Positions 2,772-20,066 of a stretch of 24,868 nucleotides of DNA are shown here, one piece after another. Within the stretch, counting starts at the first letter, position 1. Each line of letters opens with the position of its first letter. A program made the translations under genes and the position numbers. The DNA comes from a virus, in the IMG/VR virus record IMGVR_UViG_3300013132_000245, positions 1-24,868 of that record, one strand, 5' to 3'. Below the pieces are notes generated by a model that made no database searches, had not been told where the DNA came from, and saw nothing but the letters and a program-made list of their open reading frames with translations.

Positions 2772-3547
2772 GCAAAAAGAAACCGAAAGTTAAGCGGGTA
2801 GTCGTACTCTCTGACATACAGGCACCAAGCCACGATGCTAGAGCAATTACGGCACTTCAGGACTTCGTATACGATTTCGAACCTGATGAGTTGTACTGCG
2901 TTGGTGACGAGGCTGATAGCCCGGAGCCATCCCGTTGGAACAAGGGTAGAGCAGGCGAATACGCTAAAACTTTGCAATCAGGTTTAGACAAGACATCTGA
3001 GATTATGGAAGGGTTCAAAGATGTTCTTGGGGACAAGCCCTTCCATACCATGAGGAGTAACCATGGAGACAGAATTGACCACTACATCTCAAAGTACGCT
3101 CCAGCACTTGCAAGCCTCCGCGCTTTGGAATATGAGGAATTGCTCAGATACCGTGAACTCGATATTACGTATCACAATAAAATCTGGCAGTTTGCCCCAG
3201 GATGGGCTCTTGCTCATGGAGATGAAGGGTCTCTTATACAAACTTCGGGCGGAACTGCGCTTAACCTTGCGAGACGTATCGGACTTTCTGTCGTATGTGG
3301 ACACACCCACCGCCAAGGCATCCAGCACTATCACGTTGGTTACAATGGACGAATTAGTGCAAGACTCTTTGGAGTTGAAGTCGGACACTTGATGGACTTG
3401 AATAAAGCGGATTACTTGTCTACCGGCGCAGCCAACTGGCAACAAGGGTTTGCTATCTTGTACATCCGTCGTACCAATGTCACACCTGTGACTGTTCCTA
3501 TAATTGGTCGTTCCTTTACCGTGGAGGGTAAAACCTACGCATGGTAA
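2768..3547 (+). CDS. Calcineurin-like metallophosphoesterase
   Basis: The 259-residue protein shows the metallophosphoesterase signature in order: SDIQAP (D16, with Gln in place of the usual His, as in many phage members), VGDEAD (D47), NHGD (98-101), AHGDEG (H150) and GHTHR (178-182). These residues bind two metals. The substrate is unknown; phage members may act on nucleic-acid ends, cyclic nucleotides or phosphoproteins. The start is GTG 2768 in a GTGA overlap with the HNH stop. The gene ends by overlapping the sigma-like gene by 7 nt. Confidence 0.88.
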   Translation: MSKKKPKVKRVVVLSDIQAPSHDARAITALQDFVYDFEPDELYCVGDEADSPEPSRWNKGRAGEYAKTLQSGLDKTSEIMEGFKDVLGDKPFHTMRSNHGDRIDHYISKYAPALASLRALEYEELLRYRELDITYHNKIWQFAPGWALAHGDEGSLIQTSGGTALNLARRIGLSVVCGHTHRQGIQHYHVGYNGRISARLFGVEVGHLMDLNKADYLSTGAANWQQGFAILYIRRTNVTPVTVPIIGRSFTVEGKTYAW

Positions 3548-4251
3548 TAGAGCGATACGAGAACCTAGTCTCATATGTAGCCTATGAGTTCTCCCGCAAG
3601 TTTAAAATGGTAGAAGTCGCAGACCTACGACAAGAGTTGTGGTTGTGGTTCCTTGAACATCCCAAAAAGTTGAAACATTGGGAGAAGGAACATGACGAGA
3701 AAAACCTATCTAAACTTGTGGCTAAGAGCCTACGTAACGCAGCAAAAGATTACTGCCAACGTGAGAAAGCAAAGGCTCTTGGGTATCGAATCGAAGACAA
3801 CTATTATTATGATAAGCAATTATTGGAAGCCATACTTCCAGCAGTATTTACAGGCAGTAGAACACCTCCGTCGCTAACGGATATGGGTTATAGCAACACC
3901 AAGAAGGTGCTCTCTGAAGGCAACAACTGGTTGGCTATGTGTGCGGACGTTGACAAGGCTCTTACTAAGATGAGTCTAGAACAATGGGATATTTTGCGTA
4001 CCCGTTACGCTCATGGTCTTGAGATAACTAAAATGGGTGAAGAATTAAACGCATCACAAGATGCGGTGCGTATGCGTATCAATCGTGCTCTGAATACACT
4101 TCTAAATATACTTGGTGGGAATAAACCTCGCAAAGAACGTGATTACGTTGAAAGCGAAGAGCCGGAGACAGCAAGTAATGAGCATGACAACGAGCAATGG
4201 GAAAATCCAACACAAACTTTTTCGGAAGAGGCTGAGGAAAATGATTTGTAA
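3541..4251 (+). CDS. Sigma-factor-like protein (sigma70/ECF type)
   Basis: The 236-residue protein resembles a short sigma factor. Residues about 1-60 hold a region-2-like segment (LVSYVAYEFSRKF, then the core-binding-like DLRQELWLWFLEHP). Residues about 143-192 form a region-4-like helix-turn-helix (MSLEQWDILRTRYAHGLEITKMGEELNASQDAVRMRINRALNTL). The last 45 residues are an acidic, probably disordered tail. It could redirect host RNA polymerase to phage promoters. The gene is the penultimate member of the rightward operon and overlaps both neighbours. Whether it activates transcription or acts as a sigma decoy cannot be told from sequence. Confidence 0.75.
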   Translation: MVIERYENLVSYVAYEFSRKFKMVEVADLRQELWLWFLEHPKKLKHWEKEHDEKNLSKLVAKSLRNAAKDYCQREKAKALGYRIEDNYYYDKQLLEAILPAVFTGSRTPPSLTDMGYSNTKKVLSEGNNWLAMCADVDKALTKMSLEQWDILRTRYAHGLEITKMGEELNASQDAVRMRINRALNTLLNILGGNKPRKERDYVESEEPETASNEHDNEQWENPTQTFSEEAEENDL

Positions 4252-4393
4252 TCCGTGTGCTGTTGGTGGATATCTGAATAGTAAAGGCGACAAAGACGCG
4301 GTTGAGTCTCATAAGTTATGTAAGGGTTGTACCTGCCAGCATAAGACCGGCATTGGTTGGGTAATAAAAAAGCCCCTACCGCCGAAGCGGTAA
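4241..4393 (+). CDS. Small Cys-rich protein, 50 aa
   Basis: This 50-residue protein (starting MICNPCAVGG) has C3-x2-C6, then H24, C27-x2-C30, C32 and H34, a likely single zinc site. The start overlaps the end of the sigma-like gene by 11 nt, and GAGGAAA precedes it closely. It is the last rightward gene before the convergent junction. Its final codons (KPLPPKR-stop) are encoded by the 5' arm of the leftward terminator hairpin, so coding and termination share DNA. Function is unknown; proteins of this type recur in actinophages next to regulatory genes. Confidence 0.68.
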   Translation: MICNPCAVGGYLNSKGDKDAVESHKLCKGCTCQHKTGIGWVIKKPLPPKR

Positions 4394-4399
4394 GGGCTT
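4362..4399 (-). terminator. Intrinsic terminator of the leftward operon (UUCG tetraloop)
   Basis: A 13-bp stem is formed by 4370-4382 and 4387-4399, with one C-A mismatch. Read on the minus strand the loop is C(TTCG)G, an exceptionally stable tetraloop. It is followed by TTTTTTATTA (4369-4360). The T-tract exists only on the minus strand, so it should stop leftward transcription. It overlaps the 3' end of the last rightward gene. Confidence 0.85.
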
Positions 4400-4402
4400 A
4401 GT

Positions 4403-4417
4403 GTACGATTATCGTAC
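4403..4417. promoter_or_regulatory. 15-bp palindrome, copy 1 (GTACGATTATCGTAC)
   Basis: This is a perfect 7+1+7 inverted repeat. It lies between the stop of the last leftward gene and the terminator hairpin, only 3 bp from the hairpin. It is one of nine copies limited to the leftward arm. Confidence 0.85.
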
Positions 4418-4430
4418 AGTAGCAGTAGCG

Positions 4431-4586
4431 TTAGGCTACGTGTAATATGCCAAGACAGAAGCGACACGATTTTGCGTGTCGTGTAGTATCTGCGCCGAAT
4501 ACGCCTGAAGCGACATCAACGCGACAACTACGGAATAACAAACACGCGAATTCTGCGTCTGTTAATTCCTGTTCTTCTTGTGACAT
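4431..4586 (-). CDS. Small Cys-containing protein, 51 aa
   Basis: The ATG at 4586 is preceded by AGAAAGGAGAAAA, one of the best ribosome-binding sites in the window, which makes this short gene convincing. The product begins MSQEEQELTDAEF and has Cys15, Cys21, Cys41 and Cys44, the last two as C-R-F-C, with His37 nearby. A small metal site is possible. It starts 10 nt downstream of the preceding gene's stop and is the last gene of the leftward operon. No family is recognised. Confidence 0.62.
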   Translation of the reverse strand: MSQEEQELTDAEFACLLFRSCRVDVASGVFGADTTRHAKSCRFCLGILHVA

Positions 4587-4596
4587 TTTCTCCTTT

Positions 4597-4794
4597 CTAG
4601 GATACATCTACCCACTTGAGGGCAGTACGGAGAAGGGCGTCATAATCGCCCTCCATCGATTCGGCAAGGTAATTCTCTACCTCGCTAGCAGGGACACCCT
4701 CCTTGCGGAGGGCGCCCGATACCTTTGCCATAACGGCAAAAGCGTTTCCGTCTGAACCTGTCAGACGTACTTTGATGTGGTCGTACTTAGCCAT
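4597..4794 (-). CDS. Conserved actinophage protein of the MAKYDHIKVRLTG type, 65 aa
   Basis: The product starts MAKYDHIKVRLTGSDGNAFA and ends GDYDALLRTALKWVDVS. I recognise this as a short protein common in actinophages and actinobacterial prophages, of unknown function. It has a beta-rich start (HIKVRLTG) and helical remainder. The ATG at 4794 follows AGAAAGAAAAC. An upstream in-frame start would read through the palindrome at 4808-4822 and is rejected. The palindrome ends only 13 nt before the start codon, so a protein bound there would sit beside the ribosome-binding site. Confidence 0.82.
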   Translation of the reverse strand: MAKYDHIKVRLTGSDGNAFAVMAKVSGALRKEGVPASEVENYLAESMEGDYDALLRTALKWVDVS

Positions 4795-4807
4795 TAGTTT
4801 TCTTTCT

Positions 4808-4822
4808 GTACGATTATCGTAC
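4808..4822. promoter_or_regulatory. 15-bp palindrome, copy 2 (GTACGATTATCGTAC)
   Basis: A perfect copy in the 29-nt gap between the 37-residue membrane protein and the 65-residue gene. It lies directly upstream of the latter's ribosome-binding site. Confidence 0.88.
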
Positions 4823-4823
4823 A

Positions 4824-4937
4824 CTAGAGTATGAAAATGAATAGGGAGAACGCTACGCCAAGAGTAATGACGACACTCCAAGCGATAATGCGTAATGACT
4901 CCATTACACTTATCTCGAAGTATTCATCATCTTTCAT
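4824..4937 (-). CDS. Tiny single-span membrane protein, 37 aa
   Basis: From ATG 4937 the product is an acidic N-terminus (MKDDEYFEISVMESLR) followed by about 20 hydrophobic residues (IIAWSVVITLGVAFSLFIFIL) up to the stop, a clear single transmembrane helix. The start overlaps the whiB-like stop by 11 nt. AAGGAAGGAG lies upstream but about 12 nt away. The in-frame ATG at 4904 would give a 26-residue version that keeps the whole helix. Possible roles include a small holin-like or superinfection-related protein. No family is recognised and nothing in the sequence decides between these roles. Confidence 0.5.
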   Translation of the reverse strand: MKDDEYFEISVMESLRIIAWSVVITLGVAFSLFIFIL

Positions 4938-5265
4938 CAGGTAGCGACACTCCTTCCTTGTATAAGCGGGAATCATACGTATCCAGCATGAAGATAGGCG
5001 TGATTCCTAACTTTTCTTGTATGACACGACGCTCTTGGTAGTCGAGACCACCCCAAATGCCGGCTAGACCGGAGTAGGCAAGAGCGTAATTGAGGCACTC
5101 ACGTTGCGCCGGACAACCTTCGCAGATTTTCCTAGCCTTCATCGCTTCGGGAGTGCGCGACCATTGTTGAGAAGTACCCGCAACTTCTTGCGGGAACCAC
5201 CAATCAGCCGGATAGTCTTGACATAAGGCTCGCTCTGTGAGTACGGGCATGTGGTTATCTATCAT
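4927..5265 (-). CDS. whiB: WhiB-family transcriptional regulator
   Basis: The 112-residue product has the four-Cys iron-sulfur motif C15...C48-x2-C51-x5-C57, then the WhiB-specific turn GIWGG (69-73). The C-terminal region carries basic residues as well as a tail ending LYKEGVSLPDER. WhiB proteins bind a 4Fe-4S cluster and usually act by contacting region 4 of the principal sigma factor. Phage versions can alter host transcription. ATG 5265 is chosen because AGGAG lies 6 nt upstream; an in-frame TTG at 5271 is less likely. The gene sits mid-operon, overlapping the zinc-ribbon gene (11 nt) and the small membrane gene (11 nt). It is the clearest indication of an actinobacterial host. Confidence 0.93.
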   Translation of the reverse strand: MIDNHMPVLTERALCQDYPADWWFPQEVAGTSQQWSRTPEAMKARKICEGCPAQRECLNYALAYSGLAGIWGGLDYQERRVIQEKLGITPIFMLDTYDSRLYKEGVSLPDER

Positions 5266-5383
5266 GCCCAACTCCTATCTTTGAGAAAGCACATGCCTGA
5301 CAGTAGGCGTAAGTGCTATCGTCATAGTCCGGCACTACTAATGCCACACCACACTTATAGCACTCGCGTTTCTTGTATGTCAT
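5255..5383 (-). CDS. Small zinc-ribbon protein, 42 aa
   Basis: The product begins MTYKKRECYKCGVALVV and contains C8-x2-C11 and C28-x2-C31, a classical two-knuckle zinc ribbon. ATG 5383 follows AGAGAAAGAG about 7 nt upstream. The stop lies 11 nt inside whiB, and whiB's AGGAG is embedded in this gene. Both point to real translation and coupling. The role is unknown; the short length suggests an adaptor or nucleic-acid contact module. Confidence 0.68.
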   Translation of the reverse strand: MTYKKRECYKCGVALVVPDYDDSTYAYCQACAFSKIGVGHDR

Positions 5384-5573
5384 TTTGTATCTCTTTCTCT
5401 AGCGGTAATTCTCCCGCTAGGGTTCGATACTCAGAGGCTCTGAGCATCAGGGCGTTGTATTTGGATACGTCACCCTCCGCCAACGCCGTATGAGCGCTGG
5501 CGGATAGCATGTCGGCTCGCTTACTTAGGTAGTAAGGAGTCGGCGGAACCGGCTTCCACGGCTTCTTAGCCAC
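5355..5573 (-). CDS. Hypothetical helical protein, 72 aa
   Basis: The start is GTG 5573, overlapping the end of the preceding gene by 8 nt with no distinct ribosome-binding site, so expression is probably coupled. The product has a Pro-rich N-terminus (MAKKPWKPVPPTPYYLSKR) and a helical remainder (ADMLSASAHTALAEGDVSKYNALMLRASEYRTLAGELPLEKEIQ) resembling a short helical hairpin. The 3' end overlaps the zinc-ribbon gene by 29 nt. No family is recognised. Confidence 0.6.
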   Translation of the reverse strand: MAKKPWKPVPPTPYYLSKRADMLSASAHTALAEGDVSKYNALMLRASEYRTLAGELPLEKEIQNDIQETRVL

Positions 5574-5742
5574 GATTGAACACCGGAGTATAGACAGGTT
5601 CTACTACTGTCTCAAGTGTCATATTACTTGCCCATTCGTGAGCAGATTCTCTGGATTGAAACAACCCATAGATAAGTGATTCCTGCTCATAGGGCAGTAG
5701 TGAGCGGACTATAAATCCGCTCACATACATACCTTCTATCAT
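5566..5742 (-). CDS. Hypothetical protein, 58 aa
   Basis: ATG 5742 overlaps the stop of the amidotransferase gene as TGATG and is preceded by GGGGGTGG. An upstream in-frame ATG at 5793 would abut the palindrome at 5794-5808 with no room for a ribosome-binding site, so the internal start is preferred. The product (MIEGMYVSGFIVRSLLPYEQ...) has a SRESAHEWA helix and no obvious motif. Direct coupling to the amidotransferase suggests a linked function, but no family is recognised. Confidence 0.6.
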   Translation of the reverse strand: MIEGMYVSGFIVRSLLPYEQESLIYGLFQSRESAHEWASNMTLETVVEPVYTPVFNRG

Positions 5743-6605
5743 CAGTACCACCCCCAAGCAGGTGATTCTCCGGCTTTGAGTCGTAACTGCCATGTACGAT
5801 TATCGTACGACTTGTTATAGCATAAGTCCTCAGCCTTATGCGTACCGCATTGAAAGCATGAAGCGCAGGTAGGGCAGTATGAATCCTGACCCTGCTTGAG
5901 CAACTCCCAATAGTCACTAAAGTATCCGCATACGTCGCATACGACATACTCCTCATCTTCCTCATACATAGTCGTATCGACCATAGATGCGGCTTTCTGA
6001 GCATAAGTATTAGCGCCGTACTTAGAATACCAAGTCTCAAGATAGCAGGTACTATTAGACCACCACACACCTGACGAATCTTCGAAACCCTTGTTTTCAT
6101 GGAGCAGGTATAATTGATGTTTAGCACTAGGATTGACAGTAAGCACCGCAACCTTAGAGCCGGAAGTGAAATCCTCTAGCATGTTCCACACTTGAGGATT
6201 ATCGAGAGAGGCAACACCACCGATAATGGGTAGCAACTCCTCAGCGAAGATACGCGTATCGCTCCGGTCGTCTTTGTGGTACTCAACCACCGGAAGGATT
6301 CCGTTGTGACCTAGATAGGTCATGTCGTCTTTGCCCACCATGAAAGGGTGACAATTTTCGATAGTATTGGAGCCATGAGTAGCGTACCTAGCATGCCAAA
6401 TGGCATAGCCACTAAGGTATCGCTTTCTATCCTCCATGAATCGGTTGATACACTCATCAGCGTTCATGGTACGGAACGTGACGATACGTCTATCTTCCGG
6501 TACTGCTATCGCATAACCGAAGCCATGCGGATTGTTGAGTGCTGAGTTTTCTAACTTGTCACGTGAAGGCACAACGTTAGGTGGCACTACGCATAACATA
6601 CACAT
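5742..6605 (-). CDS. Class II glutamine amidotransferase with C-terminal zinc ribbons
   Basis: This 287-residue protein starts Met-Cys; Cys2 would be the N-terminal nucleophile after Met removal, as in Ntn-type glutamine amidotransferases. Matching motifs follow: HGFGYA (27-32), WHARYATHG (70-78), NCHPF (84-88), LGHNGIL (98-104) and SDTRIFAE (115-122). It would hydrolyse glutamine and channel ammonia to a synthetase or ligase. Residues 223-262 add a Cys-rich module (C223, C226, C244, C247, C250, C253, C262) not found in the basic family. AGAAAGG precedes the ATG, and a palindrome copy ends 15 nt upstream. It directly follows the amidoligase gene, its likely partner. It lacks a fused synthetase domain, so it is not a free-standing asparagine or glucosamine synthase. 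Confidence 0.85.
   Translation of the reverse strand: MCMLCVVPPNVVPSRDKLENSALNNPHGFGYAIAVPEDRRIVTFRTMNADECINRFMEDRKRYLSGYAIWHARYATHGSNTIENCHPFMVGKDDMTYLGHNGILPVVEYHKDDRSDTRIFAEELLPIIGGVASLDNPQVWNMLEDFTSGSKVAVLTVNPSAKHQLYLLHENKGFEDSSGVWWSNSTCYLETWYSKYGANTYAQKAASMVDTTMYEEDEEYVVCDVCGYFSDYWELLKQGQDSYCPTCASCFQCGTHKAEDLCYNKSYDNRTWQLRLKAGESPAWGWY
5794..5808. promoter_or_regulatory. 15-bp palindrome, copy 3, inside the amidotransferase gene
   Basis: A perfect GTACGATTATCGTAC copy near the 3' end of the amidotransferase coding sequence. On the minus strand it encodes part of S-Y-D-N-R-T. It lies about 50 bp upstream of the next start codon. Confidence 0.82.
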
Positions 6606-6620
6606 AGGTAAAGCCTTTCT

Positions 6621-6635
6621 GTACGATTATCGTAC
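6621..6635. promoter_or_regulatory. 15-bp palindrome, copy 4 (GTACGATTATCGTAC)
   Basis: A perfect copy that fills most of the 31-nt gap between the amidoligase stop and the amidotransferase start. It directly precedes the ribosome-binding site. Confidence 0.88.
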
Positions 6636-6636
6636 G

Positions 6637-8199
6637 TTAGTCGTCTTGATTCTCCACGTCGCGCTCATCACGGAAAGCCTTGAGCATGAGTGCGTTTAGG
6701 TTTGAGTATTGCTTTTGATTAGCATGAACGTGACCACAGAAAGCGAGCCATGACAGCGCATTATTCGTGGCGTTCACTTTGAGATTGCGAGTGTATTCGA
6801 CTCCGGCATGTACGAACTCGATAGCACCGAGTACGCGTTCAGGTCGAAGTGAACCCTTGAAGATACGAACCTCCAGCGTAGTATCGTTCTCAGTATTGAC
6901 CGCAGTATGCCGGTCGAATCCCTGCTCACGAACCTTCTGCCAGAGATGACCCTTATCTTGGAAATTAGCATAGCCGGACTTACGACCTGCCAACTTACAG
7001 ACTTGGGCTTCGTTGTCATACACGAGTTTGATGAATCGTAATTCGTGTGTCTGACGTGACGAGATGTGTTCTGAATAGTTATCTGTACGAGAATCGTACG
7101 GAATACCGAACGCGTCACGAGAGACGTGAACGTGAAGTCCGCAAGTGTTAGTATCCCACGAGCGCAGACCTAAATTACGGAATGAGGCGAATCTATCGAA
7201 CCCGAAGTCCTTACGAAACGCCTCAAGCGTGTGTGGGTGGCTAACTATCTCGAACCCATTGTTGAGCGAGCCGTCGTACTTGAGATAGACACGCTCGCCT
7301 AGACTATCCTGAACGCTTTGAGCGCAATCTAAACGCTCGCCACGCACAGACTCGACTTCTAACTCAATGCCAAAGTAGAGGCGAGTCTCAGGGTCTCGCT
7401 CTTTTGGAGGGAAGAAGTAGGGTCGTGGCTTGTAGCCGTAATCATGGATAACGCCCGAGTCGTAATCGTCGTCACACTCGTGGTCGTCTCCGTCCCAATA
7501 ACCCACGTCACATGTGGAGCAGAAGAAGCGGTGTCTGTTGACACAACGTTCACAGAATTCCTCGCCGTCAATGTGATTGATGTAGTCGTTGTGGTGATAA
7601 CTATGACACCACCCGCACTCGAAGTAGTCTTCATCTAGGTTAAATCCGTTCTCTTGGAGGATAGAATCTACGCAGCGTTGGCACTTATCATGACCCTCGA
7701 AAGAGATGATACGTACGTATTCTTCGTATTCCGGCTTTTCTGAAGCATCTCTAAACGAATTCCAATGGAATCCGCTAGAGATGTACCACATGTCGCAACA
7801 CCGAGCGTGATGCCGACAATGTTGGTGAACTTGTACGATAATCGTACAGTCGTCTTGCCGGTGAGCCGAATCTAATGGGTTGGTTTCTGAAGCGGGTGTA
7901 CCGCATGCGTAGCAGATAGGGGTATCAGCCACTATCGGATAAGTCTCTACGGATACAATAGGCGTCGTTTGCCTGAGATAGTCGAAGCCGACCTCATCTT
8001 CCATACTGAGATGGGCACCCATTAAATGCCGCCACATCTTCTTATGACACCCGAGGCAAGCAACGTATGGCGTATCGCCAACACCGCAATTTCTGTACGA
8101 ACTATGATTAGCGAGTGAGTGCGTGAATAGAAACTGTGTTGTATAACACGTCTCGCACTTCTCGACTTCGACCATAGCCCATGAGGGCTGATTAGTCAT
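6637..8199 (-). CDS. Zinc-finger / amidoligase (COOH-NH2 ligase) protein
   Basis: The C-terminal part (about 274-495) matches the phage amidoligase family, which has a glutamine-synthetase-like fold: FGIELEVE (276-283), YDGSL (308-312), EIVSHP (317-322), GLHVHVSRDAF (354-364) and EVRIFKGSLRPE (443-454). Such enzymes are predicted to join a carboxyl to an amine using ATP. The first 270 residues are packed with Cys/His knuckles (CxxC at 15-18, 48-51, 96-99, 173-176, 195-198, 216-219 and 227-230) and probably bind several zincs, perhaps for targeting. ATG 8199 is chosen for its CGAGAG ribosome-binding site and 8-nt overlap with the membrane-protein gene; ATG 8214 is the alternative. The neighbouring class II amidotransferase is the expected ammonia donor. 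Two palindromes lie inside the gene. Confidence 0.82.
   Translation of the reverse strand: MTNQPSWAMVEVEKCETCYTTQFLFTHSLANHSSYRNCGVGDTPYVACLGCHKKMWRHLMGAHLSMEDEVGFDYLRQTTPIVSVETYPIVADTPICYACGTPASETNPLDSAHRQDDCTIIVQVHQHCRHHARCCDMWYISSGFHWNSFRDASEKPEYEEYVRIISFEGHDKCQRCVDSILQENGFNLDEDYFECGWCHSYHHNDYINHIDGEEFCERCVNRHRFFCSTCDVGYWDGDDHECDDDYDSGVIHDYGYKPRPYFFPPKERDPETRLYFGIELEVESVRGERLDCAQSVQDSLGERVYLKYDGSLNNGFEIVSHPHTLEAFRKDFGFDRFASFRNLGLRSWDTNTCGLHVHVSRDAFGIPYDSRTDNYSEHISSRQTHELRFIKLVYDNEAQVCKLAGRKSGYANFQDKGHLWQKVREQGFDRHTAVNTENDTTLEVRIFKGSLRPERVLGAIEFVHAGVEYTRNLKVNATNNALSWLAFCGHVHANQKQYSNLNALMLKAFRDERDVENQDD
7085..7099. promoter_or_regulatory. 15-bp palindrome, copy 5 (variant), inside the amidoligase gene
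   Basis: GTACGAGAATCGTAC, one mismatch in the inner arm. On the minus strand it encodes Y-D-S-R-T within the amidoligase domain, just after the HVHVSRDAF motif. Confidence 0.75.
7833..7847. promoter_or_regulatory. 15-bp palindrome, copy 6, inside the amidoligase gene
   Basis: GTACGATAATCGTAC, a perfect 7+1+7 repeat. Here it is read in a different frame, encoding T-I-I-V within C-T-I-I-V-Q, in the zinc-finger region of the amidoligase protein. Confidence 0.82.
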
Positions 8200-8350
8200 G
8201 TTGCTCTCGTTCATAAGTGAGAGCCAAGTCGCGCCATGATTTAAGGCTACGACTTAGACGAGCGTTTGCTATGGCGGTTGTGAGTACGAGCGCCATAGAC
8301 GAGATGAGTGCGATAGTAATACCGACTATCTCGATAGGGTATAGATACAT
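8192..8350 (-). CDS. Small single-span membrane protein, 52 aa
   Basis: ATG 8350 is preceded by AAAGGAAAG. The product has a short N-terminus (MYLYPIEI), a hydrophobic helix at about residues 8-30 (VGITIALISSMALVLTTAIANA), and a basic amphipathic tail (RLSRSLKSWRDLALTYEREQHD) that should lie in the cytoplasm. It is the first gene after the promoter at 8481-8509 and overlaps the amidoligase start. The juxtaposition suggests a membrane anchor or regulator for the amidoligase module, but this is inference only. No family is recognised. Confidence 0.65.
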   Translation of the reverse strand: MYLYPIEIVGITIALISSMALVLTTAIANARLSRSLKSWRDLALTYEREQHD

Positions 8351-8385
8351 GTCTTTCCTTTCGTCTAGGGTACTCCTTCTCTACT

Positions 8386-8400
8386 GTACGATTATCGTAC
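8386..8400. promoter_or_regulatory. 15-bp palindrome, copy 7 (GTACGATTATCGTAC)
   Basis: A perfect copy in the leader of the main leftward operon. It lies about 80 bp downstream of the promoter at 8481-8509 and 35 nt before the first start codon. A bound protein here would act as a roadblock rather than occlude the promoter. Confidence 0.87.
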
Positions 8401-8404
8401 GATA

Positions 8405-8437
8405 GGTAGGCTACGCGGGGGGCATAGCCCACCTACC
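8405..8437 (-). promoter_or_regulatory. Leader hairpin of the main leftward operon
   Basis: On the minus strand GGTA/TACC and GGCTA/TAGCC form about 9 bp of stem with a small bulge and an 11-nt C-rich loop. It lies immediately upstream of palindrome copy 7, between promoter and first gene. There is no T-tract, so it is not a simple terminator. Confidence 0.5.
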
Positions 8438-8480
8438 ACCGCAGTATCGAGAAAAGGATAACGAGACCTGCGGTAGCATT

Positions 8481-8509
8481 ATTATCCCATAAGCAACCCC
8501 GTAAGTCAA
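8481..8509 (-). promoter_or_regulatory. Sigma70-type promoter for the main leftward operon
   Basis: On the minus strand there is TTGACT (8509-8504), a 17-nt spacer and GATAAT (8486-8481). Each box matches the consensus at five of six positions with ideal spacing. Transcription should begin near 8474 and run through the membrane protein, amidoligase, amidotransferase, WhiB and the small genes to the terminator at 4362-4399. Confidence 0.72.
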
Positions 8510-8524
8510 GCCTCCGTTGGTCGT

Positions 8525-8593
8525 GGCAACTAGGCAACTAGCACCGGACTAGGCAACGAGAACAAGACAACGAGAGCAAGGCTAGCGATAGCC
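8525..8593. repeat. Cluster of short direct repeats (iteron-like) plus a small palindrome
   Basis: GGCAACTA occurs twice in tandem (8525-8532, 8533-8540). It is followed by two adjacent 14-mers, GGCAACGAGAACAA (8552-8565) and GACAACGAGAGCAA (8566-8579), which match at 12 of 14 positions. All four share the core CAAC. A hairpin GGCTA-GCGA-TAGCC follows at 8580-8593. The cluster lies just upstream of the leftward promoter, so it could be an activator site or replication iterons. Confidence 0.5.
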
Positions 8594-8661
8594 GACACAA
8601 ACTCGGTGGCTGAGTTCAGCAACCAATGTTCCCTACACAAACTTTTTTTCCGGCGCGAGCC

Positions 8662-8676
8662 GTACGAAAATCGTAC
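8662..8676. promoter_or_regulatory. 15-bp palindrome, copy 8 (variant GTACGAAAATCGTAC)
   Basis: This intergenic copy has one arm mismatch. It lies between the orphan gene's 3' hairpin and the T-run at 8643-8649. Confidence 0.75.
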
Positions 8677-8692
8677 ACACGCTCCGGACATG

Positions 8693-8732
8693 GCGTAGCG
8701 CCCCACCCGCCGGAACGAGTGAGGCGCTACGC
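8693..8732 (-). other. GC-rich hairpin after the 202-aa gene
   Basis: A perfect 10-bp stem (8693-8702 with 8723-8732) encloses a 20-nt loop. It starts 8 nt past the stop codon of the leftward 202-residue gene. No T-tract follows on the minus strand, so it may stabilise the transcript end or act as a non-canonical terminator. Confidence 0.45.
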
Positions 8733-8740
8733 GCTAGGGC

Positions 8741-9349
8741 TTAGGAAGCCTTAGAGATAGAAGGGTGATTTGGAGTTTTGACTTGCTTGGAGTGCTTTAC
8801 GCAAGCCCCCAACTGCTTGGCAAGAGCCTCGGCGCCCTCGACGTTTTCAATAATTCCGCCGAAGTCTTCAGCCTCGAGAGCCTCGAGCAGAGCCACGATT
8901 AGAGCCTCCACGCCCTCGACTTTAGGGGAGCGTGTTTTCTCCTTATCGGGAGCCTCGGAGACAACTTTAGCGAGTTTCCCGAAGGAAGTCGCTACATCCA
9001 CCAACTCAGCGAAGCGTTTCTTTCCAAGTTTCCGCGTGCCTTGAATTGTGACGTTTAAGAGAGCCTTGAGAGGAGCCTCGTTAGCCCCTGCCACTTTCAC
9101 GAGTACCACGGAAGCGCTCTGAAAGTATTGAACGGACGAGACCGCGATAGTGGGGAGGGCGCCGGTTTCAGCATTGACCGCCTCTATTGTTGCCTTACCG
9201 CCACGAACGGAGAGTTCGCCTTCATTCATTAGCCCGACCATGTCGAGCCACAATTCGCGCTCCTTCTCAATTACGGGAAGGAGTGAAGCCTTAAACGAGG
9301 TGACTAGCGAGGTGTTCGCCATGTCCTTGCTTGATGTTGCTTGTGTCAT
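8741..9349 (-). CDS. Hypothetical protein, 202 aa, first gene of the leftward arm
   Basis: I do not recognise a family. ATG 9349 is chosen for the strong AAAGGAAAAG upstream; the frame stays open to 9403 but lacks a start signal there. The product (MTQATSSKDMANTSL...) has an N-terminal helix (FKASLLPVIEKERELWLDMVGLM), a central strand-rich part (ATIEAVNAETGALPTIAVSSVQYFQSASVVLVKV), a basic segment (GTRKLGKKRFAELV), a Glu/Ala-rich helical region (about 133-180) and a basic Ser/Lys/Pro tail. It appears soluble. It has its own promoter-like sequence and an upstream palindrome copy, and a 390-bp gap separates it from the next leftward gene. That makes it a separate transcription unit and a candidate regulator, but no DNA-binding motif is evident. 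Confidence 0.75.
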   Translation of the reverse strand: MTQATSSKDMANTSLVTSFKASLLPVIEKERELWLDMVGLMNEGELSVRGGKATIEAVNAETGALPTIAVSSVQYFQSASVVLVKVAGANEAPLKALLNVTIQGTRKLGKKRFAELVDVATSFGKLAKVVSEAPDKEKTRSPKVEGVEALIVALLEALEAEDFGGIIENVEGAEALAKQLGACVKHSKQVKTPNHPSISKAS

Positions 9350-9394
9350 GTCTTTTCCTTTTCTCGGGTTGAGCCATTCCCAACCACTAAGAGA

Positions 9395-9423
9395 AGAATA
9401 CACGAACCCAACCCCAAACGCAA
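9395..9423 (-). promoter_or_regulatory. Candidate promoter of the 202-aa gene
   Basis: On the minus strand there is TTGCGT (9423-9418), a 17-nt spacer and TATTCT (9400-9395). This is about 45 nt upstream of the start codon, leaving room for the AAAGGAAAAG ribosome-binding site. Palindrome copy 9 lies 22 bp upstream of the -35 box. Confidence 0.5.
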
Positions 9424-9445
9424 CTCAAGCCACCGAGCGCCAGCC

Positions 9446-9460
9446 GTACGATAATCGTAC
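9446..9460. promoter_or_regulatory. 15-bp palindrome, copy 9 (GTACGATAATCGTAC)
   Basis: A perfect copy upstream of the candidate promoter of the 202-aa gene, and the rightmost member of the set. None was found in the 15 kb of virion genes beyond it. Confidence 0.85.
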
Positions 9461-13818: not shown

Positions 13819-14253
13819 ATGGCAGAAGGTATGAGAACATCTGGAGTCGGCAAGAATTCCAAGCGTATCGACTTAGATAAAGCCAGAAAAGTTCAACGTC
13901 AGGCTAAGATTCAGAACGCACCCGGTGGTGCTTATGGTCAACGCGCTGAGTTAACTGAACTTGCTAGTGGCGCTCCAATGCCACAAGGTCCACAACCTGC
14001 TGCTGTACCGCAGATAGCATCTCGTCAACAGATGTCTCAGATTCCTTCTGTTGGTATTTTTGAACCTACGCAGCGCCCTGATGAACCAATTACTGCTGGT
14101 TTAGCAACTGGCGATGGTCCCGGTCCTGAAGTATTACAGACTCCCGTAACCGCACCTGACCAACTTGCTGTTCTTGCTCGCGCTATGTTTGCTGCTAACC
14201 CTACACCTCAGTTACGTAGACTTGTCGAAGCCTTCATGCAAGAAGGACGGTAA
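13819..14253 (+). CDS. Hypothetical Pro/Gln/Ala-rich protein, 144 aa
   Basis: ATG 13819 follows GAGGA at the end of the previous gene. The product is low in complexity and probably disordered in the middle (GAPMPQGPQPAAVPQIASRQQMSQIP). Short helices lie at the start (DLDKARKVQRQAKIQ) and end (DQLAVLARAMFAANPTPQLRRLVEAFMQEG). It couples to the giant gene by TAATG. It could be a linker or chaperone for the giant protein. No family is recognised. Confidence 0.7.
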   Translation: MAEGMRTSGVGKNSKRIDLDKARKVQRQAKIQNAPGGAYGQRAELTELASGAPMPQGPQPAAVPQIASRQQMSQIPSVGIFEPTQRPDEPITAGLATGDGPGPEVLQTPVTAPDQLAVLARAMFAANPTPQLRRLVEAFMQEGR

Positions 14254-17200
14254 TGCCACAATTAGGTAAGGATTGGAACAAGTACCAGTATACAAGTGTT
14301 TTCGACACCACAAATACTAATCGTGTACTTGCCAACGCCGTAGATACCCAGTTACAAGGTCTTAACCCAGAGATAAATAATAATTTTAATTCGCTTGTTA
14401 ACAAGTTTCCTAATCAAAGTAAAGATTTCTTACTAGGTGCTGCTAAGTTAGGCTTAAATTCTAACAGCAAAGGTATCGAAAGACTAGCCTCTGTTGATGG
14501 TTTAGCGCAACTAAAGCAAGATTTGGCTAACGTAGATAATTTAAAGTCTGTAGCAAAAGAAGATAAAGGTTTACTTCAGGGCATCAAAGATGCTTTGTAT
14601 GCTGGAGTTAAGGGTACAACTCGCGTACTGTTTGCTACTTTACAGGCTCCTTATCAATATACAACCACATTAGCACGTGAAATATACTCTACTGCACGTG
14701 GCGAAAGCACAGGTTCTGTATCAGAACGCTTTCAAAGAATAAATCCTTTAACTGGTTTGACATCGGAAACTACAAACCTAGGTCAATTACTTGAAGCAAC
14801 CAAAAAAGGAATTGCTGATGGTAAGAAAATTGATACCGGTGCTGGTTTCTTCATAGCGCATGACTCTAAAGTTGCTAAGTCACAGGCTAAAGCAATGCGT
14901 GCCTATGGTCGTATTAATGACCAGTCATTCACAATTGGACGTATGGCTCTTAATGGGCTAGGTGCTGACCCTAATGGAACGCCTTATCGCGTTATGTCAG
15001 GTGTAGTTGATGCAGTATTAGCCGTTGGAACTGACCCATCTGTATGGGTAGGACCCGGTAGCGTTACTAAAATCATCAAGAGCGGAAAAGAACTACAAGG
15101 CGCTACAGAGTCAGCAAAGCGTGTAGTAGCAGCACGTGATGAAAAAATCGCAGCCAAGCAAATTGAAGACATTAAGGCTGAAACTTTGGCTGAAGAAAAA
15201 CGTATCAAAGAGTTTCATGGTCAGAAGAAAGATGTTATTCGCGAAGTAGATAATACTTATCTAAAGGCTGAACGTAATCTTAAGAGAACTAAGCAGTCAA
15301 CAGAACGCGCTAGAGTGCGTATTGCTGCTCAACAGTTAACTCAAAACCTATCAAGAGTAAAAATTGGCGAGGCTGGACTTGGTGCCCAACTCGATAACAA
15401 TGCTATCGGTAATTTTGCCCTAGACATTGTCCAAAATGGCAAGAACAGAGAGACGATTGATTATCTTGGCCAGATGTCTGCTGACCTAACTAACACCAAG
15501 AGAGCGTTTACAGGTTTATATTTTGAAGAAGTTCCCGATGCTGGTAGGTTACATCTTGGGGCGTACGGTGACGATGAGTTTATTGTTGCTGTTTCGGATA
15601 AAGCCCCGCTCAACATCTACGACATTAACACAACTTATGAGTCTGCGACGCTTGCTGAAAGAGCGCTAGAGACAGAACGACGTGGCGCATTCTTTGATGA
15701 ACTATTCCGTTTAACTAATGACCCAGATTTACCATTAGCAACACGCGAAGGTATAGATGAATTTATCGGAGCAACTACTCCGGGTAACACTTTGATGAAA
15801 TCATCTTATGATGATGTCCTCTTTGGTGAAGGTTCTGAATCTGTAGCACGACTTATCCAGCGTGCTATTGATACACAGAACGATGATGTAGTACAGTTAG
15901 TTGTATCTGCTATACAGAATGCTTGGAAGGCAGATGGATTCTCCAATATCCGTGCTATCCATGGTGGTACTGGCGGAGTCGTACTAACCAACTACGAGAA
16001 GTTCTCTGCTCGCTATATCAGCATTAGCGATGTACTTGATGAGACAGCCGAAGGACGTATGGGGCCTGAAGCCTTTGCTAGACTGCTTGGCTCCATCAAG
16101 GGTGCAGAAGACCAACTTGCTGATGCTCAGAAAGCATTTGATGATGCTCAGTTAACTTATAGCACCGTTAATCGTGACCTTAAAGAGATAGATATTCTAC
16201 AAGAGTTCGTTAAGAGAGACCCCGAACTCTATGACCAGATAATTAAAGACCCTAAAAATGCCGGTATTGCCCGCCTTATGGACATTGCAGATAAAATTAA
16301 GTCTGGCGAATCGCGCAAAGAGTTGATTCGTTCTGAGGTAGGTTTGCTTGATTCCTTTGGTGGCACTCTCAAAGCCGACCTTAAAAAAGCAGCAGGATAC
16401 GTACTAGGAAAGCGATTTGCACAAGTTGCTCAAATCGTAGCCCGTGAGACAGACCATGCTAGATTAAATCGTCTTTTTGGCCGTAAATTAGACCAAGCAA
16501 TGGTAAAGGACCTTGTAGATGCGCAAAGTTCTGATGAGGTTATTAGCATTTTCCTTAAGCATCTTGCTGCTCCTGAGTCTGACCCTTCTATTTATCGTTC
16601 TCTTGCCCTCCGTGGCGAAGCGGCTCTTAACTCAAGTAACCCATTATACAAGATGGTTGCGCCAGTTGCTCGAAAGGCTCTACCAATTGTTGAAAAAACT
16701 GAGCGTAATTTTGGTAGATACTTTTCGCGTTCGGTAGTATTACCACTTGATGACCTAGATAGGCTTATCAATGGAATTGAAGATTGGATGTCTTCGGCTC
16801 AAATACCTGAGAACATTATCGATGATGTTATTAATCGTCTGTCCAAGGCTGATACTTCAGAGGTTCGCTCTGGTATTGTCTTCCAAGAAATTGAAAGAGC
16901 ACAGGTTTTAATTGCTGACCAGATTGCTCCGGGCGATAGAGCACTAGCAGAGGCTATCAAAGAGACCTTCCGTGCTACAGGTAGACAGAACGCAGTTGTC
17001 AAGCAATACGTTGCTGAGAGACTTCCTAAGAACGAAGTACCTCAAGTGGCTATGCTCAATGGCGAGATGTTCAAGTTTAACCCTGACCAAGCCATCTTTG
17101 AGTATCAATTCCTAGATGACGTAGTTCGTTTGCCTGATACTCGTGACATCAAGAAGATGGTTACTAAGTATACAGAGCATAAGGCTAAGTATGGTGCTTC

Positions 17201-20066
17201 TAGAGCACTAGATATCTTTAACGATACTATCGGAGATGCTTGGCGTACTGCTCAGTTGGCTTTCCGTGGTGCTTACATCATACGCAACATTGGTGAAATG
17301 CAGTTCCGTCAGTACTTCTCCGGACACGATAGCATATTTAATCACCCATTGTCTTACATTGCGATGATTGCAGCAGACCCAGAGGGTGGCGCTTTCCGTA
17401 AATTTTTGGCTCAAAATGCTCGTTACAAGAAAGACGTATTAGGGCAAAGCCTACTTGCTAAAGATGTAAAGGCTCAAAAAGAATTTTCTAAGGGTATTGA
17501 GGCTGTTCTTAACCAAATTGGCAGACAACATAACTCTAATGACCCACGTTTTGCTTTCGTAGGTCGTATTTATGAAGCCGTAACACCTGAACAGCCACAG
17601 TATCACTTGGCTTTAGCCAATACTATCATGAGAGCGTACTCTGATAGCCTTATTCCGCTAGTTGCTGCGGTACGTAAAGTGGAACAACAAGATGATTTTA
17701 TCTATGCTTTGATTAAAGGCGAAGGTAAGTACAAAGGAATCATCAAAAACCTTATTGAAGGTGGTCGTAACGGTGTAGAACCGCAAGACTTTGCTAAGTT
17801 GTTCCTCAAGGATTCCGTTCCAACTAGCAAGGGTGTCTACAACCTAAGCCCTGATAACTTCATTTTCGAGAACGTTAAGAACTTCGTCTTTGATGCAAAG
17901 AACTCCACTGGTTCTGTAGAGCGCTATATCCAGAACTTAACTGGTACAGGTGAGGGTTCTGTCTACATTCGTGACTTGCTTGCCTATGGCAGAGCAATTG
18001 TTGATGGAGAAGAACTCTTAGTACCCGGTTATGGCAAAGTAGATAATATTATTGATGTGGGGGATGTTGATACTGCCTTTAGAAAGGCTATCACTAAATA
18101 CTTCCCGGCAGAAAAAATGCCTAATGCTACTGCTATTGGTCTTCGTGACCAAGCCTTCGGAGCACAGGACATCAAGTATTTGGATGCTGCTGTTAACTGG
18201 TTCTTCAAGGGTGCTACCAAGGTTGAGAACTTAGTCAACTTCGTACCTGAAGCACAGATGGCTTATTGGGACCATGTAGGTCGATACGTTAATATGCTCA
18301 ACGATGCAGACCTTAAGGCTTTGCTACCTATCGCAGATGAGGCTCTAAAAGGCTTTACAGTAGGCGGTAAGCCACTTCGTAGACATCCAGTACTTAAAGC
18401 ACTCAAGGCTGAGGTACGTGCCCGCAAGAAGGGTAAGTCTGTAACCGATGGAATCACTAGACAACAACTAGATTCCATGGCCGGTAAGAAGGCTGCCGAG
18501 TATACTGAGAATCTTTTCTATAATGCTGCTAAACAACGCCAGCACGCTAATGCTATGCGAGCAATTTTCCCCTTTGCTCAGGCTCAATTCAATACCCTGT
18601 ACAAGTGGACAAAGTTGCTTAAAGATAATCCGATACAGTTCTATAAGTTAGGTCGTGCGTATAACGCTTTGACCCAGCCCGGTTCTAGTGCTATCTATGA
18701 CTTGACTGGCGTAGAGTATGATGAGAACCAAGGATTCTTCTATGAAGACGAATTTGGTGAGACTAGATTCCGTTATCCGCTTGCTGGAAGCGTTATAGGG
18801 GCTTTAGCAGGCAAAAACTTTGATTCTGCCCAAGCACTACAACTAACAGCCCCCGTACAAGCCCTTAACTTGGCTTTTGGGGCAGTAAACCCAGCAGTAC
18901 CCGGTATTGGACCTGCCGGACAGATTTTATACGCTGCTAGCGGCAAATCTGGCGCTTTTGGACCTGAATGGAACTTTTTACGTCAGATTATCTTCCCATT
19001 TGGTGAACCTGAAGGTGTAGATGACTTAGTTCTACCTGCGTGGCTACGTAAATCCTTCTTTACCTTCATGAACAACGATGCTATAGTTGAGCGTGGAGTC
19101 AAGGATTGGGCTTCATACCTAGCATCTACAGGTGATTATGGTGATAATCCACTGGCAGATGATGCTGCTCGTACCGAATTATTCAATGATGCACGTAGTC
19201 TATCCCGCTGGGCAGGCTTCTTTACGGCTCTATTCCAGAATATTGCTCCTGCTACACCATCGCAAGAGGTGTTTGCTAAGGATAAAAACGGGATGTTCCG
19301 AACACAAACTGCTATTTACAGCGCATGGGACCAGATAGCCAAGAAACACCCCGGTGACTACTTCAAGGCTGTAGGTGAATTCGCTGATACTTTTGGCGCC
19401 AAGAACCTTTTAATCATCTTAGGTGGCTCTACAAGAGCGGTACGTGGCACAGAAGATGCTTGGGCATTCTTAAATAACCACCCAGAGGCTGCTGATAAGT
19501 ATGCTACCTCAGAGGCAGACATAGTTCCGTACTTCTTCCCCGGTGGAGAAGCGGCTACTGCGTACTATAACTGGCAAAAAGCATCAGGAAGACGTCGCCC
19601 TCTCAAGCCTGAAGAGTTAGCAGAGCAGGCTCAGAACATTGTATATCAGATGGCTAAGTCACAGGTATCCGAAGAGCAGGCAGAAAACGGTTATTCAGAC
19701 GTTTGGTACACCGAACAGATGATTAACTTGAATAATAGATTTGAAGGCGTACCTACAGTAAGCGTGAGAATCGGACAGGCTGAGGCTAAGGCTGAACTAA
19801 TCGGTAAAGCCTTAAAAGACCCAGCATTCAAAGATTCGCCTATCTATGAAGATACAAAAACCTTCTATGAGGCTTATACAAGGGCTAAGAAGTACTTACA
19901 AGAGGTACGTACTACGGCTCAACCAGACCTTTCAAGCACGTTCTGGTACACCCAAGAAATATCTAAGGAACTACAGGGACTTGCTATGCAACTTATGGTC
20001 AAAAACCCAGCGTTCTCGCGTATGTATTACGGTGTATTTTCAGGACTGATAGAGACAAAGGAATAA
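14253..20066 (+). CDS. Giant virion protein, 1937 aa (possible ejected internal protein)
   Basis: This single reading frame takes up nearly a quarter of the window. Residues about 300-350 are a charged, coiled-coil-like region (AAKQIEDIKAETLAEEKRIKEFHGQKKDVIREVDNTY...). Residues about 419-590 (FTGLYFEEVPDAGRLHLGAYGDDEF ... AWKADGFSNIRAIHGGTGGVVLTNYEKFSARYI) have a layout reminiscent of ADP-ribosyltransferase-like domains in phage polyvalent proteins. This is tentative, because I cannot place a full catalytic triad. Residues about 600-650 look coiled-coil. The C-terminal third has hydrophobic and aromatic patches (FPFAQAQFNTLYKWTKLLKDNPIQFYKLG). Its position between portal and scaffold, its size and its multidomain build suggest a protein packaged in the head or ejected with DNA. 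A tail tape measure is less likely because it precedes the capsid genes and lacks a typical repetitive helix. Confidence 0.7.
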   Translation: MPQLGKDWNKYQYTSVFDTTNTNRVLANAVDTQLQGLNPEINNNFNSLVNKFPNQSKDFLLGAAKLGLNSNSKGIERLASVDGLAQLKQDLANVDNLKSVAKEDKGLLQGIKDALYAGVKGTTRVLFATLQAPYQYTTTLAREIYSTARGESTGSVSERFQRINPLTGLTSETTNLGQLLEATKKGIADGKKIDTGAGFFIAHDSKVAKSQAKAMRAYGRINDQSFTIGRMALNGLGADPNGTPYRVMSGVVDAVLAVGTDPSVWVGPGSVTKIIKSGKELQGATESAKRVVAARDEKIAAKQIEDIKAETLAEEKRIKEFHGQKKDVIREVDNTYLKAERNLKRTKQSTERARVRIAAQQLTQNLSRVKIGEAGLGAQLDNNAIGNFALDIVQNGKNRETIDYLGQMSADLTNTKRAFTGLYFEEVPDAGRLHLGAYGDDEFIVAVSDKAPLNIYDINTTYESATLAERALETERRGAFFDELFRLTNDPDLPLATREGIDEFIGATTPGNTLMKSSYDDVLFGEGSESVARLIQRAIDTQNDDVVQLVVSAIQNAWKADGFSNIRAIHGGTGGVVLTNYEKFSARYISISDVLDETAEGRMGPEAFARLLGSIKGAEDQLADAQKAFDDAQLTYSTVNRDLKEIDILQEFVKRDPELYDQIIKDPKNAGIARLMDIADKIKSGESRKELIRSEVGLLDSFGGTLKADLKKAAGYVLGKRFAQVAQIVARETDHARLNRLFGRKLDQAMVKDLVDAQSSDEVISIFLKHLAAPESDPSIYRSLALRGEAALNSSNPLYKMVAPVARKALPIVEKTERNFGRYFSRSVVLPLDDLDRLINGIEDWMSSAQIPENIIDDVINRLSKADTSEVRSGIVFQEIERAQVLIADQIAPGDRALAEAIKETFRATGRQNAVVKQYVAERLPKNEVPQVAMLNGEMFKFNPDQAIFEYQFLDDVVRLPDTRDIKKMVTKYTEHKAKYGASRALDIFNDTIGDAWRTAQLAFRGAYIIRNIGEMQFRQYFSGHDSIFNHPLSYIAMIAADPEGGAFRKFLAQNARYKKDVLGQSLLAKDVKAQKEFSKGIEAVLNQIGRQHNSNDPRFAFVGRIYEAVTPEQPQYHLALANTIMRAYSDSLIPLVAAVRKVEQQDDFIYALIKGEGKYKGIIKNLIEGGRNGVEPQDFAKLFLKDSVPTSKGVYNLSPDNFIFENVKNFVFDAKNSTGSVERYIQNLTGTGEGSVYIRDLLAYGRAIVDGEELLVPGYGKVDNIIDVGDVDTAFRKAITKYFPAEKMPNATAIGLRDQAFGAQDIKYLDAAVNWFFKGATKVENLVNFVPEAQMAYWDHVGRYVNMLNDADLKALLPIADEALKGFTVGGKPLRRHPVLKALKAEVRARKKGKSVTDGITRQQLDSMAGKKAAEYTENLFYNAAKQRQHANAMRAIFPFAQAQFNTLYKWTKLLKDNPIQFYKLGRAYNALTQPGSSAIYDLTGVEYDENQGFFYEDEFGETRFRYPLAGSVIGALAGKNFDSAQALQLTAPVQALNLAFGAVNPAVPGIGPAGQILYAASGKSGAFGPEWNFLRQIIFPFGEPEGVDDLVLPAWLRKSFFTFMNNDAIVERGVKDWASYLASTGDYGDNPLADDAARTELFNDARSLSRWAGFFTALFQNIAPATPSQEVFAKDKNGMFRTQTAIYSAWDQIAKKHPGDYFKAVGEFADTFGAKNLLIILGGSTRAVRGTEDAWAFLNNHPEAADKYATSEADIVPYFFPGGEAATAYYNWQKASGRRRPLKPEELAEQAQNIVYQMAKSQVSEEQAENGYSDVWYTEQMINLNNRFEGVPTVSVRIGQAEAKAELIGKALKDPAFKDSPIYEDTKTFYEAYTRAKKYLQEVRTTAQPDLSSTFWYTQEISKELQGLAMQLMVKNPAFSRMYYGVFSGLIETKE

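Follow-up and report, generated by a model that had tools for sequence, protein, structure and literature searches.

Two neighbouring minus-strand genes in the virus record IMGVR_UViG_3300013132_000245, one for a ligase and one for a glutamine amidotransferase (GATase), raise the question of what their products do together, and to what target. An association of amidoligases with amidotransferases in phages was reportedly predicted by Iyer et al. in 2009 (cited in PMC10580990). Later literature still describes the function of such pairs as to be explored, and we found no experimental or biochemical test of an amidoligase-GATase pair in the literature. The pair described here is a member of this already known kind, which is found in numerous phages and mobile elements. 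The window, that is, the whole stretch of DNA that was analysed, is the 24.9-kb virus record, itself a fragment.

The ligase and GATase genes lie in a leftward block

Both genes called by the original prediction were found on the minus strand, within 5742–8199. The plus strand of the window carries replication and head genes, while the pair sits inside a block of leftward genes that begins near 9.4 kb and ends at a terminator-like hairpin (4370–4399; Table 1). Two starts are available to the ligase, and the one at 8199 is more likely than the one at 8214 because a GAGAG stretch, Shine-Dalgarno-like when the sequence is read directly, stands just 5' of its ATG and because this ATG overlaps the stop of the 52-aa open reading frame. 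About 29 of 114 related loci have a similar frame at this position, its likeness to the window's own frame being judged by eye, and further small open reading frames lie downstream of the GATase gene in the leftward block. Since the window has a WhiB-like gene and a TerL closest to those of Streptomyces phages, leaving aside one unplaced contig, the host is probably an actinobacterium. Of the 114 related loci, 76 have a WhiB-like gene downstream of the ligase, at a distance of about 2.2 kb. A promoter scan of the window gave four sites against 6.2 expected by chance, none of them assignable, and a search of four related contigs (37–43 kb) turned up no tyrosine integrase.

Table 1 Features of the leftward block and of the two encoded proteins
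Feature	Position	Strand	Remarks
Palindrome sites	4403, 4808, 5794, 6621, 7085, 7833, 8386, 8662, 9446
WhiB-like gene	4927–5271	−	Pfam 2.7e-15; downstream of the pair
Stand-alone class II GATase gene	5742–6605	−	287 aa; begins MCMLC
Cys-rich C-terminal GATase tail	5820–5939	−	Residues 223–262
Ntn glutaminase domain	6036–6605	−	Residues 1–190; Cys2, Arg73, Asn101-Gly102, Asp116
Palindrome copy	6621–6635		Between ligase stop and GATase start
Ligase gene (Amidoligase_2 / glutamine synthetase-like carboxylate-amine ligase)	6637–8214 or 6637–8199	−	525 or 520 aa
Glutamine synthetase-like catalytic region	6715–7449	−	Residues 256–500; motifs GIELE, K-DGSL..GFEIV, CGLHVHVS, N..N..TLEVR
N-terminal zinc array of ligase	7474–8157	−	Residues 20–247; seven CxxC; LIM-like/treble-clef by weak profile similarity
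52-aa predicted membrane open reading frame	8192–8350	−	Upstream of ligase; stop overlaps ligase start at 8199
220-aa gene, family unrecognised	8741–9403	−	First of operon; upstream of ligase

Both proteins have the expected folds and intact active sites

The window GATase matched Pfam GATase_4 (1.8e-5) and gave partial matches to the NCBIfam families glmS and purF. Its structural model matched GlmS (best, 2.7e-7), PurF and EgtC (2.4e-4). Met1-Cys2, Arg73, Asn101 and Gly102 are invariant in the GATase family and Asp116 is present in more than 90% of members; in the window protein the glutamine-binding Arg73, the oxyanion pair Asn101-Gly102 and Asp116 are all in place. Cys2, singled out in the original prediction, is not mutated in homologues: it is present in the window and kept in 147 of 148 viral and 46 of 47 cellular loci.

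Taken alone, the window ligase had no match to Pfam Amidoligase_2 (PF12224) at E ≤ 1, and an NCBIfam search gave none either. At the same threshold, 35 of 38 aligned members of its family did match Amidoligase_2, the best at 3e-9; when five records were searched, three scored over the curated cut-off, the window's record not being among these. The C-terminal half matched PHROG families of unknown function (1e-33). An alignment of the 38 ligase sequences, which reach down to 26% identity, holds 42 invariant positions. The AlphaFold2 model of the ligase (mean pLDDT 84), compared with the PDB by Foldseek, matched glutamine synthetase (GS; 8.6e-6), the gamma-glutamylmethylamide synthetase GmaS (2.0e-5) and YbdK (6.0e-5), with TM-scores that are low by query length (0.25–0.29), about 250 of the query residues being the zinc array. 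Glu284, Glu286, Glu322, Glu448, Asp314, His361, His363 and Arg450 are conserved in the window ligase and in its viral and cellular relatives; by analogy, these acidic, histidine and arginine residues may be metal- and ATP-site ligands. About 150 viral loci, and most of 78 cellular ones, retain intact catalytic residues. We regard both folds and the intact active sites as almost certain, and the enzyme classes first proposed, an amidoligase-family ligase with a GS-like fold and an Ntn-type amidotransferase, agree with these results.

The ligase zinc array is a family trait and the GATase tail is phage-specific

The count of seven CxxC knuckles ahead of the catalytic half of the ligase proved exact. 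Twelve cysteines (Cys101, 104, 133, 140, 178, 181, 200, 221, 224, 232, 235 and 247) are invariant in all 38 sequences despite their divergence, so the array is not due to chance. Similar CxxC numbers are carried in the corresponding region by most relatives (5–9; mostly 6–8 in viral and 6–9 in cellular ones), and the array is therefore a trait of the family rather than the unusual addition for which it had been taken. In the GATase, the C-terminal cluster holds the seven cysteines originally noted (C223, 226, 244, 247, 250, 253 and 262). Of 145 viral loci, 138 encode such a tail with four CxxC, against 0–2 CxxC in cellular loci; of the two Cys-rich parts this one alone is restricted to phage relatives, and it is absent or reduced in bacterial ones.

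LIM domains have proteins as their main binding partners. They were the best solved-structure matches of the ligase array, at a borderline E of about 0.001, and because the array looks LIM-like a protein target is weakly favoured. Targeting to a nucleic acid, which had also been suggested, found no support: LIM domains were the sole informative matches, and they would point to protein binding.

The two genes are paired and co-inherited

Among viral contigs, 68 loci came from a scan for the GATase and 80 were kept from a ligase profile scan, the two sets sharing some contigs. The GATase immediately follows the ligase in 144 of 149 viral ligase loci. These loci do not all represent independent genomes, since some contigs entered the set twice (114 loci are left once identical ligase ends are removed). 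Three of the five exceptions are contig ends that stop at the ligase (L190, L202 and L209). The fourth, L188, is a broken join still holding parts of both genes; we rejected it as fusion proof of a partnership, since the join lacks the beginning of the GATase and the last part of the ligase. In the fifth, from Clostridioides phage AR1086-1 (L075, 5731–6843), an RlaP-like gene follows the ligase in place of a GATase, and because of this case some ligase members may work alone. The adjoining RlaP-like gene belongs to RNA repair, and the same phage also carries kptA.

A sample of bacterial and archaeal contigs, with one genome per species, gave 78 ligase loci, and in at least 63 of them a class II GATase, recognised by its motifs, adjoins the ligase. 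Seven others end too soon to tell, and the remaining eight comprise four short or truncated ligases, three with a GATase recognised by profile and one (L146) with none. These loci come mostly from Clostridia, and also from Actinobacteria, Proteobacteria, Ignavibacteria, a spirochaete, a Bacteroidota bin and one Lokiarchaeota bin; in the last, the pair (L148) is on a 4-kb contig and may reflect contamination or a virus. Recombination or resolvase genes neighbour the pair in several cellular loci, which suggests that these copies sit in mobile elements. A 681-aa frame from Atopobiaceae (L121) that spans ligase and GATase was likewise not accepted as fusion proof of a partnership, since its join appears to result from a frameshift and would leave Cys2 inside the chain.

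The two genes usually overlap or lie less than 50 nt apart, and this spacing suggests that they may be translationally coupled. Pairing is fixed, and the partners are co-inherited: ligase and GATase distances are correlated over 148 loci (r = 0.87), and in 66 phages the ligase-GATase correlation (0.86) compares with 0.59 for ligase and TerL and 0.75 for GATase and TerL. With pairing nearly universal, we consider a functional partnership of the two proteins, as originally proposed, highly probable.

Known systems that resemble the pair

The genes gp105/gp106 of Mycobacterium phage Marvin, found in 19 mycobacteriophage records, have the same order as the window pair, with about 33% identity in the ligase catalytic half and about 31% in the GATase; both are annotated in these records as glutamine amidotransferase domain proteins or as hypothetical. 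Marvin in Mycobacterium smegmatis mc2 155 offers a tractable model for the pair. A two-gene amidoligase and GATase unit like that of the window is also present, at about 28% identity, in the Methylophilales phages MEP401/402, which have a proteobacterial host. In LUZ24, too, Amidoligase_2 adjoins a class II GATase, but the cluster also has a COOH-NH2 ligase, an ATP-grasp protein and a gamma-glutamyl cyclotransferase. None of these three was matched in the 24.9-kb window or in four related contigs of 37–43 kb, and the LUZ24 positive control of the PF14395 search was matched. The LUZ24-type module was checked in LUZ24 itself, whereas for phiEco32 and phiRIO-1 it is taken from the literature.

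Among cellular systems, EgtA/EgtC of mycobacteria is part of a biosynthetic pathway with further enzymes and, to our knowledge, has no zinc array. It likewise sets a ligase, here for gamma-glutamylcysteine, with a stand-alone class II GATase homologue, in ergothioneine synthesis (PMC9103826). MurT/GatD of Staphylococcus aureus is a two-gene ligase and glutaminase like the window pair (PMC3267633), but it joins a Mur-ligase type to a CobB/CobQ-like (class I) glutaminase, whereas the window pair has a GS fold and a class II enzyme.

A glutamine-fed ligase is the favoured function

Free ammonia or an amine is the usual donor for GS-family ligases, and we know of no characterised GS-like ligase that is fed by a class II glutaminase. 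We nevertheless favour, with a probability of about 0.55, a two-subunit, glutamine-dependent ATP ligase that works by ammonia transfer. Removal of Met would expose the N-terminal Cys of the GATase subunit, which would split glutamine and pass the ammonia to the GS-like ligase subunit; there, a carboxylate activated with ATP would be converted into an amide, and the zinc array ahead of the ligase would dock the substrate, for which a protein is likelier than a nucleic acid. We infer the physical complex, the ammonia transfer and the direction of the reaction. Neither protein has an obvious signal peptide or membrane segment by inspection, and the likeliest class of target is for this reason a cytoplasmic host component; any particular target that might be named would be improbable at best. 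In a speculative and rather improbable extension, a mobile two-subunit system, spread over phages and mobile elements of several bacterial phyla, would use a GS-fold ligase with a zinc-finger docking array, fed by a class II glutaminase, to amidate or tag particular host proteins. Near-fixed pairing, intact active sites and a conserved zinc array across many phages and mobile elements make the function of the pair a well-defined two-protein question that could be settled in the test tube.

The two enzymes might instead write and erase the same mark, in the manner of EgtA/EgtC: the ligase would join the gamma-carboxyl of glutamate, or of a glutamyl-peptide, to an amine carried by a small molecule or a protein, and the GATase-like Ntn enzyme would hydrolyse the gamma-glutamyl amide. 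Sequence cannot decide between a glutaminase and a gamma-glutamyl hydrolase such as EgtC, because their catalytic residues are of the same kind. The fold matches of the GATase include EgtC, itself a stand-alone class II GATase homologue in a pathway with a gamma-glutamylcysteine ligase (PMC9103826), and LUZ24 has related genes together with a gamma-glutamyl cyclotransferase. We rate this alternative, the main rival, as possible but rather unlikely, given that the GlmS matches are stronger, that the cyclotransferase was not found in the window or the four related contigs, and that successive pathway steps need no tight gene coupling. Modification of peptidoglycan, blocking superinfection or preparing lysis, concerns role rather than chemistry and so overlaps with the two-subunit ligase. 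Such a role is predicted for related gene sets of phiEco32, LUZ24-like and phiRIO-1 phages in three reports (PMC10580990, PMC11945000, PMC11318856), and MurT/GatD is a ligase-glutaminase pair able to amidate wall precursors (PMC3267633). It seems doubtful here: every citation traces to prediction, the partner enzymes of the module were not found in the window or the four related contigs, and the pair also occurs in an archaeal metagenome bin, though that case may be contamination or a virus.

Some base-modification pathways use glutaminases, but we think it very improbable that the pair modifies DNA bases or nucleotides of the phage, as it is spread over unrelated mobile elements and as no genes of such a pathway were recognised among open reading frames of at least 90 aa in the first 40 kb of two related, only partly annotated contigs of 41–43 kb. 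Hosts own a glutamine synthetase, and a dedicated substrate is suggested both by the zinc array and by the fixed pairing. These points leave very little room for auxiliary metabolic genes that give the host general help in nitrogen metabolism, as was suggested for Phage-ZRK32 (PMC10945688). A defence role was also considered and set aside; PADLOC gave no match for the window pair.

A repeated palindrome marks the leftward operon

A 15-bp palindrome, GTACGATAATCGTAC, occurs nine times in the window (expected, 0.03), always within 4403–9460 and only in the leftward operon. Several copies stand just 5' of ribosome-binding sites and three lie within the ligase and GATase genes. In many related phages there are 4–11 copies (four being the lower limit applied) in similar places, often of another sequence but of one type per genome, and the palindrome appears stoperator- or operator-like. 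In 34 loci, with half-sites taken from the strongest repeat of each, palindrome distance tracked the divergence of the 220-aa protein (partial r 0.56, Mantel p 0.001); it did not track that of the ligase (−0.06). This fits the 220-aa protein as a candidate DNA-binding protein and the palindromes as its putative operators. The link is a lead, since the half-sites are those of the strongest repeat and no DNA-binding domain was recognised in the protein. Facing the operon is a sigma-factor-like gene (3541–4251, plus strand) that is kept in 79 loci. Farther along the same strand, a 1937-aa protein (14253–20066) has almost no family match, and one of similar size is present in related phages.
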